Virus record (IMG/VR): IMGVR_UViG_3300032235_000428
Location: 1-64,000 of that record
Reading direction: 5' to 3' (one strand)
Length of the DNA stretch: 64,000 nucleotides
DNA from: a virus
This document shows, in pieces, positions 9,221 to 16,069 of this stretch (positions within the stretch are counted from its first letter, which is position 1; each line of letters opens with the position of its first letter). Made by a program: the position numbers and the translations under genes. The notes under the pieces are model-generated. The model did no database searches. It was given only the letters and a program-made list of their open reading frames with translations, and had not been told where the DNA came from.

Positions 9221-10261
9221 TTAGACTAACTCACACGCTTCTTTGTAAATACCTTGAATAAGTTTTTGAATAACATTCTTATCTAAGTTTGTTTCAAACT
9301 CTTCAACATATCTATTTAATATAGAAATTGTGTCTTCTGTTTCCAATTCTTCAATTTCAAAGTTTTCTTGGAAATTAAAATTTTCAATAATCTTTAATTC
9401 AAATATGTTTGATGCATATAACTTATCCAAAAATTTATCAAACTTTTTAGGATCTGTTTTTTTCTTAACGATAAGTTTTACTATTTTATTTTCATATGGA
9501 CGAGCATCAAATGTTTGATGATCACTATCATCATAAAAAATAGAATAAAACATTCTATATGGATTATCAATAGGAGTTAATTCTAATGTTTCAGTATCAA
9601 ATAAATGAAATCCCCTAGTGTCGTTATAATCATTTGAATATATTTCGTAAGGATTTCCTAGATAAAATATTGTGCCATCATTAGATCTGGTATGATAGTG
9701 TCCAGAAAATACCCTATCAAATTTCTGAAAAATACTACTATCATGTCCAGTAGTCATAGTGTGACCACGATATGCAGAAAATCCATTAAGTTCTAAATGC
9801 CCCATGGCAATTTTAGATTTACTATTTTTAATTACATCAAATGTATTATTTTGATTTTCCGAATTAATCCAAGGAATAAAAAGAATATTTTCTTTACCAA
9901 TCTTAATATGTTCAGGATTAGATATCACCCTGACATTCTTATACTCTCGTAGAAGTAAATCTACAGCATTAATATCATTCGTATTTTTATAATAAGCAGT
10001 ATGATTACCAACAACAGTGTAAACCGTACACCCCAGCGAATTTAATCTGTCGTAATAATTATTTTTTGCCCACGCAAGAGCAGAAAAATCAATACCCTTG
10101 CGACTATCAAATGTATCTCCCATGTCAATAACCGTAGTAATTCCTTCCCTTTCTAATGTGGGAAAAAATACATCATTATAAAAACTCAAAAAATAATCAT
10201 GGAATACTTTTGAGTTTTTACGTGCTCCAAAATGTTGGTCGGTTATTACAGCAACACGCAT
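9221..10261 (-). CDS. gp47: gp47 recombination endonuclease subunit (SbcD/Mre11-like)
   Basis: A 346-residue metallophosphoesterase, close to T4 gp47 (339). Motifs in order: DQHFG near residue 8, MGDTFDS near 45, VVGNHTAYY near 82, MGHLELNG and GHYHTRS further on. These bind the two metal ions of Mre11-type nucleases. A TTG at 10264 could extend the frame by one codon. I choose the ATG at 10261 because it forms an ATGA overlap with the gp55 stop. It is the partner of gp46. Confidence 0.97.
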   Translation of the reverse strand: MRVAVITDQHFGARKNSKVFHDYFLSFYNDVFFPTLEREGITTVIDMGDTFDSRKGIDFSALAWAKNNYYDRLNSLGCTVYTVVGNHTAYYKNTNDINAVDLLLREYKNVRVISNPEHIKIGKENILFIPWINSENQNNTFDVIKNSKSKIAMGHLELNGFSAYRGHTMTTGHDSSIFQKFDRVFSGHYHTRSNDGTIFYLGNPYEIYSNDYNDTRGFHLFDTETLELTPIDNPYRMFYSIFYDDSDHQTFDARPYENKIVKLIVKKKTDPKKFDKFLDKLYASNIFELKIIENFNFQENFEIEELETEDTISILNRYVEEFETNLDKNVIQKLIQGIYKEACELV

Positions 10262-10758
10262 CAATACCTCAGTTTAGAATGAACATTATCTTTGATACTA
10301 TTATAGTCAGAATAATTGCTTCCGTCAATAGTATTATCATCACAAAAAACTTCGTCAAATCCAGTCTTTTCTAGAATTTTATTCTTAATCTCTAACTGCT
10401 TTTTCTCTTTTTGAATTCTTCTCAGAAAAGCGTAGTGAATAATTTGAGTAAAATAAGCAAAAGGATTTTGAGATTTCTCTGGATTAAAATTATGAATATA
10501 TTGAACACAATTTTCAATACCATCAGAAATCATATCATCTTTGAAAATATAATTAACAAAGTTTGGTTTAAATGAAAGGTGAGTAGCAATCTTTAAAAAG
10601 CATTCACCCAGATAATTGGTAATCCTTGGTTTTGGGTCACCTCTCTCCTGTGCTTCTACAATTTCTTTTTTATACTGAATTAAAGCAGCAAGAAAGTCCT
10701 TATTATTAACGTAGTGTACTGACCTTTTTCTTTTAGTCATTGCTGAGGTGGTAATCAT
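10261..10758 (-). CDS. gp55: gp55 RNA polymerase sigma factor for late transcription
   Basis: A 165-residue protein, T4 gp55 being 185. Core features are KPRITNYLGECFLKIATHLSFKPNFVNY and GIENCVQYIHNFNPEKSQNPFAYFTQIIHYAFLRRIQKEKKQ, the sigma-2-like segment of the gp55 family. It directs host RNA polymerase to NATAAATA-type late promoters; thirteen such boxes occur in this window. Two starts are possible, ATG at 10758 or MTKRKRS at 10740; neither has a clear Shine-Dalgarno. A sigma70-like promoter lies directly upstream, so this gene is likely read by unmodified host polymerase before the late phase. Confidence 0.93.
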   Translation of the reverse strand: MITTSAMTKRKRSVHYVNNKDFLAALIQYKKEIVEAQERGDPKPRITNYLGECFLKIATHLSFKPNFVNYIFKDDMISDGIENCVQYIHNFNPEKSQNPFAYFTQIIHYAFLRRIQKEKKQLEIKNKILEKTGFDEVFCDDNTIDGSNYSDYNSIKDNVHSKLRY

Positions 10759-10784
10759 TAGAATCTATAATGTAATATGTAGAC

Positions 10785-10813
10785 ATTATAACACTTTAAT
10801 CCCCAAATCACAA
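10785..10813 (-). promoter_or_regulatory. Sigma70-like promoter for gp55
   Basis: On the minus strand, TTGTGA (plus 808-813 of the 10-kb block) and TATAAT (10785-10790) are separated by exactly 17 bases, and the gp55 ATG lies about 27 bases beyond the -10 box. It stands back to back with a promoter on the other strand, the two -35 boxes being 4 bases apart. Confidence 0.7.
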
Positions 10814-10817
10814 ATGC

Positions 10818-10847
10818 TTGACACAACCAGCAGTATTTCGCTATAAT
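10818..10847 (+). promoter_or_regulatory. Consensus sigma70 promoter pointing against all genes (antisense)
   Basis: The plus strand reads TTGACA at 10818-10823, an 18-base spacer, then TATAAT at 10842-10847. Both boxes are perfect matches. Transcription would start near 10854 and run rightwards, antisense to the Sm-like, uvsW and uvsY genes. There is no plausible plus-strand gene for several kilobases. A possible small or antisense RNA is discussed as a finding. Confidence 0.6.
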
Positions 10848-10875
10848 AGGTTTGTTCCCTTTGGAAACTATAATA

Positions 10876-11274
10876 TTAGCTATTATTAAATAGTTTCTCT
10901 AATATCTCTTTAGCATCATTTATATTAGATATATAACCCATTTTACGATTTATCTTTCTTCTAGTACCTGAAGAGCTACTAAAATCTGTAGTGTTTCTAA
11001 TATAACTTTGATACATTGATATCATTTGGATATTTTTAGATTCACTTAGTGTTAATATATCATTCATATTTAATATAAAGATATCTTCTTTACTAGTCTT
11101 TAACCATTGTTCAAGCTTATATCCAGTACCACTTCTGGTTTTTACTTCTGATACAGTTACAGGATTAGTAATTAAAAGTAATGTTTCACCATTTTCATCA
11201 GATGGTGCTACTTTGGCAAAGATCTCTTCACCTGTTTTTAATTTTACTGTGGCATAAAAATCGTCTTCTATCAT
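10876..11274 (-). CDS. Sm-like small protein of cyanophages
   Basis: A 132-residue protein. The N-terminal 45 residues (DFYATVKLKTGEEIFAKVAP, then LLLITNPVTVSEVK) have the strand pattern and KTGxExxAKV turn of an Sm/LSm fold, the family of Hfq and other RNA chaperones. This is a fold impression, not a confirmed match. The C-terminal half is polar and less structured. The start ATG at 11274 overlaps the uvsW stop. It is the last gene before the intergenic promoter pair in front of gp55. Confidence 0.7.
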   Translation of the reverse strand: MIEDDFYATVKLKTGEEIFAKVAPSDENGETLLLITNPVTVSEVKTRSGTGYKLEQWLKTSKEDIFILNMNDILTLSESKNIQMISMYQSYIRNTTDFSSSSGTRRKINRKMGYISNINDAKEILEKLFNNS

Positions 11275-12743
11275 GTTTTTAAATTAATAGTAATTATTTC
11301 GTAATTAAATTTTTCTTCATTATAAATTTTAATTCTTTCAATTAAATGATTTAATGTATAATTTTTTCTTGACTTGTGAGTACAATCATCAGCAATATCA
11401 TAAAGCATTGCTTTTGTTTTGTTTTTTCCCTTTCTAAGAACCCTTCCAATACTTTGTAAATTACGTATTCTAGATTTGCTTGGTGATGCAAATACTACAT
11501 TGTGAAGGTTTCTAATATTTATTCCTGTAGAAAATACACCATAAGAAGCAATAATTATAGCATTTTCTTGTGCCTCAGTAATTTCTCTTACACGTTCTCT
11601 TTCAGCAGTATCAATTCCACCATGAACAAAAAATACTTTGCGACCAGATTGTTTACAATTATCAATTAATTCAAATAATGGTTTACCATGAGATTCAACT
11701 CTAGAAAATAATATTAAAGTATTACCCTTTAAATCTAAAACTAAATTTTTAATAAAATTATTTCTTTTATCATGTGTTATAATAAATTGAACCTCATCTT
11801 CATAAGTTTCAAAAGTCTGAGGAGTATGCTTTAATACAAGACATCTAATATCTAATTTAGATACATGCCCCTTCTCCATTAATTCTGCAGTTCTAGTAAC
11901 TTTATAAGATGGTCCAAATAATCCTTCAAGAACCCATTTATGAGTTTGAGTACCATCTAAAGTTCCAGTAAAACCAAATCTATACTTGGCATGATGTAAT
12001 TTTGTCATTATACTAATGAGGGATTTACTTTTGAATAAGTGTGCCTCATCACCAACTACCACATCAAAGTCTTCAAAAAATCCTCTTTCTAAATTGTAAA
12101 TAGATTGCCATGTAGTAATAGTTACATTGGCATTATTAGTCTTTTCCCTACCAGAATAAATTTTATGGCAATACGATGACGCATCCCAACCATAATCCTC
12201 AAAATCTTTGTACATCTGCTCTACAAGAGATGTCGTTGGAACGACTAAGAGAATTTTTTGTCCTTTGTCTACATAGTACCTCACTAATGAATAAATCATC
12301 AGAGATTTGCCAGATGCAGTGGGGCTTATCAATAATCTTCTATTATGTTTTAAAGCATCGTATACTCCATCAATCTGATAATCTCTCGGAGAATGAGAGC
12401 AAATAGATTTCATATAATCTTTTACACCCTCATATGAAATACCTTCGTTTACTTCAAAAGGTAATCCATAGAATTTATTATCTTCAAATTTGTAGTTGTA
12501 ATTATAATTGTTACAGAAGGAGACGAGTTTATCAAGCAGACCTACGTAGAGTTGTTTGGTCCGCATATCAAATAAATGTATTTCTCCATTCCAATTCTTA
12601 CCTCTATATTGAGGCATGAATTTTGCATTGGGTACTTCAAATTTAAAGTAATCCCTTAATTCATACTCAATATGAGGTTCACATTGTATCTTTAAAAATA
12701 CTTCGTTAGACTTTGAAATTAATAAGTCAAATTTATCAACCAT
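11271..12743 (-). CDS. uvsW: UvsW RNA-DNA and DNA helicase
   Basis: A 490-residue superfamily 2 helicase, T4 UvsW being 503. The N-terminal ~115 residues match the UvsW double-psi-like domain. Then come the Q-like SPRDYQIDGV, Walker A SPTASGKS (140-147), DEAH box (D232-H235), motif III FTGTLDGT and motif VI SIGRVLRKGK near residue 430. It unwinds R-loops and branched intermediates, switching replication from origin-primed to recombination-dependent initiation. Its start overlaps the uvsY stop by 8 bases. Confidence 0.97.
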   Translation of the reverse strand: MVDKFDLLISKSNEVFLKIQCEPHIEYELRDYFKFEVPNAKFMPQYRGKNWNGEIHLFDMRTKQLYVGLLDKLVSFCNNYNYNYKFEDNKFYGLPFEVNEGISYEGVKDYMKSICSHSPRDYQIDGVYDALKHNRRLLISPTASGKSLMIYSLVRYYVDKGQKILLVVPTTSLVEQMYKDFEDYGWDASSYCHKIYSGREKTNNANVTITTWQSIYNLERGFFEDFDVVVGDEAHLFKSKSLISIMTKLHHAKYRFGFTGTLDGTQTHKWVLEGLFGPSYKVTRTAELMEKGHVSKLDIRCLVLKHTPQTFETYEDEVQFIITHDKRNNFIKNLVLDLKGNTLILFSRVESHGKPLFELIDNCKQSGRKVFFVHGGIDTAERERVREITEAQENAIIIASYGVFSTGINIRNLHNVVFASPSKSRIRNLQSIGRVLRKGKNKTKAMLYDIADDCTHKSRKNYTLNHLIERIKIYNEEKFNYEIITINLKT

Positions 12744-13173
12744 ATCCTGCCTGGAATTTTATAAATTCGATGGCATTCTTAATTTGGTAAGTTCTGTTTT
12801 GAATAACCTTAAGAATACTCTCTAAGTAATTTAGGATAGTTTCATAGTAGTCTATTTTTAGACATACCTGAGACAATTTTTCATCGGCATCCAAATACTT
12901 TTGTAGAGTATCTTTGTCCCTTATTTTTTTGGGAAATGGATTTTCGATATAAACTTCTGGATCTGCTTTGCCTGTAAAATATTCGTAGCGTTCGTGCCTA
13001 ATATTCTTTTTTTGTTGCTCTGCTTTCTTTTTTAAAAGAACGATATTATTGTAAATATCAAAATATTTAGCATGTAAAATTGGGATGTTTGTAGATTCTG
13101 TGTGAAGATTATCCATATCAATTTTGGCATCTTCTTCCCACATTTTTTGTATCATGTCAAGATCAATAATCAT
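12736..13173 (-). CDS. uvsY: UvsY recombination mediator
   Basis: A 145-residue, highly charged helical protein, T4 UvsY being 137. It begins MIIDLDMIQKMWEEDAKIDMDNL and has the conserved HAKYFDIYNNIVLLKKKAEQ block near residue 35. UvsY loads UvsX recombinase on gp32-coated single-stranded DNA. It is translationally linked to gp3 before it (overlap 13170-13173) and to uvsW after it, the standard T4-like order. Confidence 0.96.
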   Translation of the reverse strand: MIIDLDMIQKMWEEDAKIDMDNLHTESTNIPILHAKYFDIYNNIVLLKKKAEQQKKNIRHERYEYFTGKADPEVYIENPFPKKIRDKDTLQKYLDADEKLSQVCLKIDYYETILNYLESILKVIQNRTYQIKNAIEFIKFQAGYG

Positions 13174-14610: not shown

Positions 14611-14640
14611 AAAAAAGGGGGGCCTTTTGGACCCCCCGAA
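14611..14640 (-). terminator. Rho-independent terminator after gp23
   Basis: On the minus strand GGGGGGTCC, an AAAA loop, then GGCCCCCC and TTTTTT form a very GC-rich hairpin with one bulged base and a U tract, about 20 bases after the gp23 stop. Confidence 0.9.
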
Positions 14641-14659: not shown

Positions 14660-16069
14660 TCACATGAGGTTCTTGATTTGAACTCTTCTGTAGTAACGGT
14701 TTGCGTTAACTTGAAGTCTGCCGAGACCTTGAGTGGTTCCTTCAGCAAATGGGTTAGCAACAAGACCGTATCTGGTCTTAAAGCCAATCTTAGGCTGGAA
14801 GGTGTTCTCACCAACGGCACGAACCATTTGGAGAGGAACGTAAGGGCAATAGAACAGACCTGCATCATAAGGGGAAGAACCCTTATAACCAACAACGTAG
14901 TACTGGTTAGCAGATACGTTTGCCGAATAAGGATCGATATATACGCGGAACTTGCCGAGTAGAACACCAGCGAAGGTGTTACCAGTGTCATCAACGTTGA
15001 GGTTTGCGTTCAGAGCAGGGGTGTAATCGAGAACACCAGCCATGCTGAGAGCAGATGCAACGTCAGCAGAACACATGATAACATTACCCTTTCCTCTACG
15101 AGTTCTTTGTGCGATTGCGTTAGCATCGCGCTCGATTTGGAAGAGTAGACCTTTGAACTTCTCAACTGACCAACGACCGTTTGAATCAACGTCTAGGTCA
15201 AATACACCAGCGGTAGCAGTATTTGCTGCAGCACCTTGCTCAGCGACCTTGTAGATCGTTCTGATGACTTCTCTGTTGATTTCTGCGAGGATCTCAGTGG
15301 AGAGAATGTTAGCAAGTTCTGCTTCTGCGTTTAGACCGTGGATAGCCTTGAGGTCTTGAGCGAGTTCTAGTGAGTACTCAGCTTTCAGTGCTCTTGACTT
15401 TGCTTCAACGAGAACTTTCTCGATAGAGAATGCCATTTCGTTGAACTGGTTTGCACCACCGTTACCGAGATTCTCAGAATCTCCAGTATACATGCCCTGA
15501 CCAACGTTGTAACCATCGGAACCAGTGGATGCACCAGTACCAACAGGGTTAAGAAGACCTGGGTTTGAACCATACTGAGTAGTAGTACCCATACCAGCAG
15601 CAACGTTAGTTGCAGCGGTGAGACCAATACCAGAATTCTGACCAGAGAATGCGGTGTCTGCTTCGTTGAAGAGTGCTTCGGTTCCCGACTGATTGTTGTA
15701 ACGAGAACGCATTGCGAAGATAAGTCCAGTAGGACCACTCATTGGTTGAACGCCAGCGAGGTCGTATGCGACCAAGTTAGGCATTGAACGTCTGATCAAT
15801 GAAATTAGCACAGGGTCGAAACCTGCTACAGGACCACCTGCAGCGGCGGAACCTGAGAAACCACCTGAAGCACCAGCAGCATTACCTGCATTGGTTGGGG
15901 TTTCCATGAGAACGCCGCTTGAGAAAGCTTGCTGTTCTCTTAAGAATTTTTCTTGGTTTTCTAACAGGACTGCGGTTACAGCTCTTCTATGCGAATCTTT
16001 GATAGGATCAAGACCATCATAGTCGAGAAGTGGTGCCCACTTTTCCTGCAGATGCTCGGATTGGAACAT
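14660..16069 (-). CDS. gp23: gp23 major capsid protein precursor
   Basis: A 469-residue protein, T4 gp23 being 521. It starts MFQSEHLQEKWAPLLDYDGL and contains IRRSMPNLVAYDLAGVQPMS, GPTGLIFAMRSRY and the C-terminal NPFAEGTTQGLGRLQVNANRYYRR, all hallmarks of cyanophage gp23. It builds the hexamers of the head. A consensus gp21 cleavage site (LxE) occurs as LME at 54-56, so the N-terminal ~56 residues are probably removed during maturation. A ribosome site AAAGG precedes the ATG. I see no late box directly upstream, so it is likely co-transcribed with gp22. A strong terminator follows it. Confidence 0.98.
   Translation of the reverse strand: MFQSEHLQEKWAPLLDYDGLDPIKDSHRRAVTAVLLENQEKFLREQQAFSSGVLMETPTNAGNAAGASGGFSGSAAAGGPVAGFDPVLISLIRRSMPNLVAYDLAGVQPMSGPTGLIFAMRSRYNNQSGTEALFNEADTAFSGQNSGIGLTAATNVAAGMGTTTQYGSNPGLLNPVGTGASTGSDGYNVGQGMYTGDSENLGNGGANQFNEMAFSIEKVLVEAKSRALKAEYSLELAQDLKAIHGLNAEAELANILSTEILAEINREVIRTIYKVAEQGAAANTATAGVFDLDVDSNGRWSVEKFKGLLFQIERDANAIAQRTRRGKGNVIMCSADVASALSMAGVLDYTPALNANLNVDDTGNTFAGVLLGKFRVYIDPYSANVSANQYYVVGYKGSSPYDAGLFYCPYVPLQMVRAVGENTFQPKIGFKTRYGLVANPFAEGTTQGLGRLQVNANRYYRRVQIKNLM

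Follow-up and report, generated by a model that had tools for sequence, protein, structure and literature searches.

A predicted antisense promoter kept back to back with the late sigma factor promoter in T4-like cyanophages

Why would a T4-like cyanophage keep, next to the promoter of its late sigma factor gene, a second promoter that points the other way and leads into no gene? The question arises from a window of 64,000 nucleotides (the whole stretch of DNA analyzed here), which is part of a virus record of 102,460 bases with the gene content of a T4-like cyanophage. Such phages are among the commonest viruses of the ocean, and the timing of their transcription is poorly explained; they lack Alt, ModA/B, MotA, and Asi (PMC2984593). 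In the window, an intergenic gap of 117 bases (positions 10759-10875) lies between gp55, the gene for the late-transcription sigma factor (10261..10758; phrog_234, E 2.9e-68), and the gene for an Sm-like domain protein (10876..11274; PF16243, E 5e-13, phrog_471). The latter is adjoined by the genes for the UvsW helicase (11271..12743; PF21241, PF04851, and helicase domains, phrog_16) and the UvsY recombination mediator (12736..13173; PF11056, E 3.9e-42). The confidently identified genes flanking the gap are on the minus strand. A plus-strand transcript would first oppose the Sm-like gene and, if it continued, uvsW. Members of the Sm-like family, both here and in relatives, are commonly annotated as “methylamine utilization”; the Pfam assignment is an Sm-like domain.

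The preliminary description of this DNA had placed two back-to-back sigma70 promoters in the gap, and re-reading of all 117 bases reproduced their boxes, their spacers, and the 4 bases (ATGC) between the two -35 boxes exactly. The predicted gp55 promoter (10785..10813, minus strand) consists of a -35 box TTGTGA (10813-10808), a 17-nt spacer, and a -10 box TATAAT (10790-10785). This -10 box is extended, TGTTATAAT (10793-10785), with TG at 10793-10792, and the form TGnTATAAT is common and conserved among relatives. The divergent antisense promoter (10818..10847, plus strand) consists of TTGACA (10818-10823), an 18-nt spacer, and TATAAT (10842-10847), which puts its expected +1, judged by the spacing from the -10 box, near 10854. 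It is the sole 12/12 consensus match in the 12 kb scanned and the sole instance of TTGACA-15/19-TAnn(A/C)T in the window. The -35 and -10 hexamers, their 16- to 18-nt spacing, and a conservation above chance are those of sigma70-type promoters. Another sequence of this kind, TTGACG-17-TATAAT (11/12), is found at 10300-10328 on the minus strand, within gp55 and about 36 bases before a gp47-like gene, and is probably a separate gp47 promoter.

For comparison with relatives, 483 gp55/Sm-like gaps were gathered from IMG/VR loci by means of six gp55 queries and from phage records, and were then filtered; 6702 windows from the same loci served as controls. A strict plus promoter, TTGACA-14/19-TAnnnT, is present in 403 of the 405 cyanophage-type gaps, versus 1.3% of the control windows. 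Neither exception is a loss: L443 has both promoters once a misplaced gp55 start is corrected, and L096 (phage ACG-2014f) has TTGCCA-17-TATAAT, with a 5/6 variant of the -35 box, and retains the start-site element described below. The plus-strand boxes are therefore not lost from relatives retaining the gp55 promoter. Such a loss was one of the two outcomes that the preliminary description had named as refuting its second promoter, and the comparison thus favors that promoter. Among 209 de-replicated gaps, whose clusters are not phylogenetically independent, TTGACA is found in all and a -10 box TAnnAT in nearly all. Since most spacer positions vary, the hexamers are not conserved merely by recent descent. 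This conservation supports the reality of both promoters and indicates that the plus promoter is at least as conserved as that of gp55. The predicted antisense promoter is strictly kept beside gp55 in essentially all T4-like cyanophages examined. The group around Melnitz, a phage infecting a methylotroph (Methylophilales), is mixed, with 30 of 78 loci matching TTGnnn-16/18-TAnnnT, which allows a weaker -35 box, together with the element.

The start-site element lies immediately 3′ of the plus -10 box, as a conserved block AnC-YY-TGT-nn-RGGnTTnA with TGT at about +1. In degree of conservation, its core roughly equals the hexamers. In the window the element (10848..10865, plus strand) has the form AGGTTTGTTCCCTTTGGA, the family consensus being nACCTTTGTnnRGGnTTGA, and a short stem is possible between AGG (10848-10850) and CCT (10858-10860). 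In this element and at the corresponding site of 216 relatives, the bases flanking the TTTGT core co-vary, as if a stem were kept across the expected +1. The flanking pairs are mostly CC..GG or AC..GT, with GG..CC in the window and twelve others, and GC..GC or CG..CG elsewhere; the window element is this GG/CC-swap variant and is missed by the strict element pattern. A two-base complement around TTTGT occurs in 94% of gaps; when the arms were shuffled among sequences 500 times, the mean was 75% and the highest value 80%. The 94% is inflated by shared ancestry, but separate swaps are seen in several lineages.

No second copy of the promoter with its element was found in the 64-kb window. In relatives, the same -35 and -10 boxes followed by TGTnnRGGnTT recur elsewhere in the genomes, and many complete genomes have one or two additional copies of the module, each oriented in sense and placed directly ahead of a short gene. 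Such copies are found in Syn9, S-PM2, S-RIM2, Syn33, P-RSM4, and others, where they precede small genes and CpeT. Specifically, the genes concerned include CpeT in S-RIM2, a close homologue in Syn33, S-PM2p212, and a 70-codon ORF in Syn9. A scan of IMG/VR with the perfect-TATAAT version returned many further such promoters, mixed with pattern hits of other origins. By its sequence, the plus promoter thus belongs to a class of phage promoters that is distinguished by this start-site element. The presence of the same module in sense before genes is also the strongest argument that the plus element of the gap is a working promoter, rather than an upstream site of gp55.

The Syn9 transcriptome of Doron et al. 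2016 reportedly covers early and middle promoters of cyanophages, possibly of the same class as the sense copies, and some of the present findings, chiefly this class, may have been described in that study. The right arm of the sense copies often coincides in part with a GAGG that could bind ribosomes. A similar situation exists in T4, where a hairpin in long transcripts masks the ribosome site of certain genes. The gp55 copy has no gene to control. A family of short ORFs of about 67 to 70 codons, encoding uncharacterized proteins, recurs behind the module (for example, in L550, L617, and L111).

The two promoters of the gap stand in only a few geometric relations. The distance from the gp55 -10 box (ATTATAnCA in plus-strand reading) to the plus TTGACA, taken in 218 de-replicated gaps, is 6 to 8 nt in 46, 15 to 18 nt in 121, and 24 to 32 nt in 41, with other values in 10 and none at 9 to 14 or 19 to 23 nt. 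In the first class, the promoters interleave, and the gp55 -35 box (TTGACA, seen as TGTCAA) lies within the plus spacer. In the second, a single heptamer TTGACAA serves both, reading TTGACA forwards and TTGTCA backwards. In the third, to which the window belongs (27 nt), the boxes abut. The -35 box is shared or interleaved in 167 of the 218 gaps, and in both of these classes that of gp55 is far closer to consensus than expected by chance. The A that follows TTGACA is needed only by the reverse -35 box and is found in 119 of 121 sharing gaps versus 27 of 41 abutting ones (Fisher p=5e-8); the gp55 -35 box is therefore itself under selection. A helical phasing of the promoters was considered and rejected: a period of about 10 bp fits the spacings, but clashes of overlapping hexamers largely explain the missing ones.

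The footprint of the sigma70 polymerase extends roughly from -55 to +20, which makes simultaneous occupancy implausible in all three classes. One footprint would nearly always span both -35 regions, and from this geometry we infer that the two promoters are mutually exclusive. The earlier suggestion that one polymerase could exclude the other is upheld as far as the closeness of the boxes goes; the exclusion itself would be a consequence of the geometry. Among 72 copies of the module, those with a good nearby reverse -10 box are mostly the gp55 ones, so the back-to-back pairing seems to be peculiar to gp55. Compactness of the genomes and shared ancestry could account for part of the tight overlap. 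As described in PMC10268837, the bidirectional bacterial promoters of Warman et al. 2021 share a symmetric -10 box and have starts 7 to 25 bp apart. The gp55 pair resembles these in having divergent starts from overlapping elements, one strand being coding and the other antisense and non-coding. In contrast to that description, it shares, interleaves, or abuts its -35 boxes, each side is a full promoter, and the -10 boxes of the window are separate (10785-10790 versus 10842-10847), about 50 bp apart, with expected starts more than 70 bp apart.

The DNA downstream of the plus promoter shows little sign of a product. As the preliminary description had stated, no plus-strand gene follows: the window contains no plus-strand ORF of more than 10 codons starting within 200 nt of the expected start, and none is conserved among the relatives compared. 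A coding product of the plus transcript was rejected, a first ATG/GTG ORF of at least 40 aa within 100 nt being present in only 2 of 214 relatives. Terminators 3′ of the promoter show no enrichment (13/214, versus 12/214 in the next 250 bases taken as a control), no consensus RNA structure was found downstream, where single sequences fold near random, and there was no Rfam match. Nor is synonymous constraint evident where the transcript would overlap the 3′ end of the Sm-like gene: synonymous identity there is broadly similar to that elsewhere in the gene and rises at most slightly over the last 8 codons. One relative with a long gap of 207 bases (L018) carries a plus-strand terminator-like hairpin, ACATTCTTC TTTA GAAGAATGT TTTT, about 78 nt past the antisense start; hairpins of this type are not seen as a rule in relatives. 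With no fold, terminator, ORF, or clear synonymous constraint, a sequence-specific trans-acting RNA is unlikely. Such a lack of constraint is to be expected of antisense transcription in cis, and it favors cis-antisense transcription and promoter exclusion rather than a small RNA that acts in trans or is partnered by the Sm-like protein.

These observations suggest a non-coding regulatory antisense transcript, so far unannotated, at the early-to-late switch. The explanation that we consider on balance probable is that a divergent promoter pair is read by the main sigma factor of the host and that the plus promoter fires a predicted cis-antisense RNA, mutually exclusive with gp55 output. The sequences themselves show the two promoters, their conservation and their overlap; they also show that the promoter class is shared with other sites and that no gene for a product follows. 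The host factor would recognize the compact pair, one promoter leading to gp55 and the other to non-coding transcription that would run against the Sm-like gene and continue in the direction of uvsW. With -35 regions that abut, interleave, or coincide, only one polymerase at a time would be accommodated. Antisense transcription would most likely act in cis, opposing convergent late read-through from uvsY-uvsW-Sm-like, which would keep UvsW low early and insulate gp55, and it would tune the frequency of gp55 initiation. The activity and timing of the promoters, their exclusion in vivo, the length of the transcript, its reach over uvsW and uvsY, and its regulatory effect are what we infer from this arrangement.

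Late-promoter-like ATAAATA motifs favor the strand opposite the plus transcript, with 21 on the minus strand and 2 on the plus strand of the whole window, a point for the cis-antisense reading. T4 expresses uvsW from a late promoter, and the helicase unwinds R-loops at early origins (PMC3016281); together with the strand bias of ATAAATA, an antisense transcript entering uvsW early would be consistent with this sequence of events. Cyanomyoviruses have been recorded to transcribe antisense RNA, in a remark in PMC10976474 and in CfrI of cyanophage S-PM2, an antisense RNA of about 225 nt that was detected at the site of psbA and a homing endonuclease gene (PMC2984593, PMC5931967). The gp55 gap likewise has a promoter opposite a gene and no coding product, which predicts non-coding RNA from the strand opposite phage genes, again within this phage group. 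Unlike CfrI, whose RNA was detected, it concerns the gp55/Sm-like/uvsW site, is near-universal in the group, and is predicted from sequence alone. The absent downstream constraint equally fits a promoter whose RNA does nothing, and the compensatory changes at the start site are unaccounted for by the cis-antisense model.

A rather less probable explanation shares the geometry and dispenses with the RNA: the plus promoter might simply compete with that of gp55, delaying or metering the late sigma factor, with the transcript as a by-product. The -35 boxes shared or interleaved in most gaps, the extra A kept for the reverse box, and the unconstrained downstream sequence all agree with such a timer. 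However, a start-site element whose core is about as conserved as the hexamers would be superfluous for mere competition. It is distinctly unlikely that the site is a replication origin of the T4 oriF [ori(uvsY)] kind, at which the plus transcript would form an R-loop in AT-rich DNA and prime the leading strand, to be cleared by late UvsW. In T4, transcription from middle promoters supplies the oriF and oriG primers, and the R-loops are unwound by UvsW (PMC3016281); both oriF and the gp55 gap have a host-polymerase promoter in the uvsW/uvsY neighborhood. The downstream DNA is indeed AT-rich, in the lowest 4 to 7% of the window and the lowest 7 to 15% of Syn9, but this is mild, not extreme. In contrast to oriF, the gap has no identified unwinding element, and Syn9 has no GC-skew switch at this place, an indirect check.

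In favor of a discrete trans-acting small RNA that starts at the plus promoter and works with the Sm-like protein are the strong and conserved start, the genuine Sm-like domain encoded by the adjacent gene, and the hairpin of L018. Nevertheless, such an RNA was rejected as improbable: the near-equal terminator counts, near-random folding without a consensus, lack of synonymous constraint in the overlapped gene, and lack of an Rfam match offer neither the conserved fold nor the intrinsic terminator of a structured small RNA. The earlier proposal of the Sm-like protein as a natural RNA partner accordingly finds no backing: its Sm domain is real, but no link to this RNA was found. Least probable of all is a gp55 regulatory site or a chance look-alike of a promoter, as AT-rich DNA does yield many promoter-like matches (58 in the scan, versus 49.5 expected), but these would hardly be near-universally conserved at the correct spacing, or recur as identical modules that precede other genes in the sense direction.

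A broader version of the cis-antisense reading can be put forward tentatively. In it, a phage-specific promoter class marked by its start-site element, with the compensating base changes, would be fused back to back with the late-sigma promoter throughout the family. The early polymerase would then have to choose between making the late sigma factor and silencing the late repair helicase by antisense transcription (or priming replication at this site). If true, this switch would be a core device for timing in Kyanoviridae, so far unannotated. An antisense promoter that is nearly invariant and tied to that of gp55 is a specific and easily tested candidate for setting the switch.

Elsewhere on the minus strand, a strong terminator-like hairpin (14617-14637), GGGGGGTCC AAAA GGCCCCCC followed by TTTTTT, lies directly after the ORF at 14660-16069, and uvsY-uvsW-Sm-like therefore probably rely on starts beyond this hairpin.
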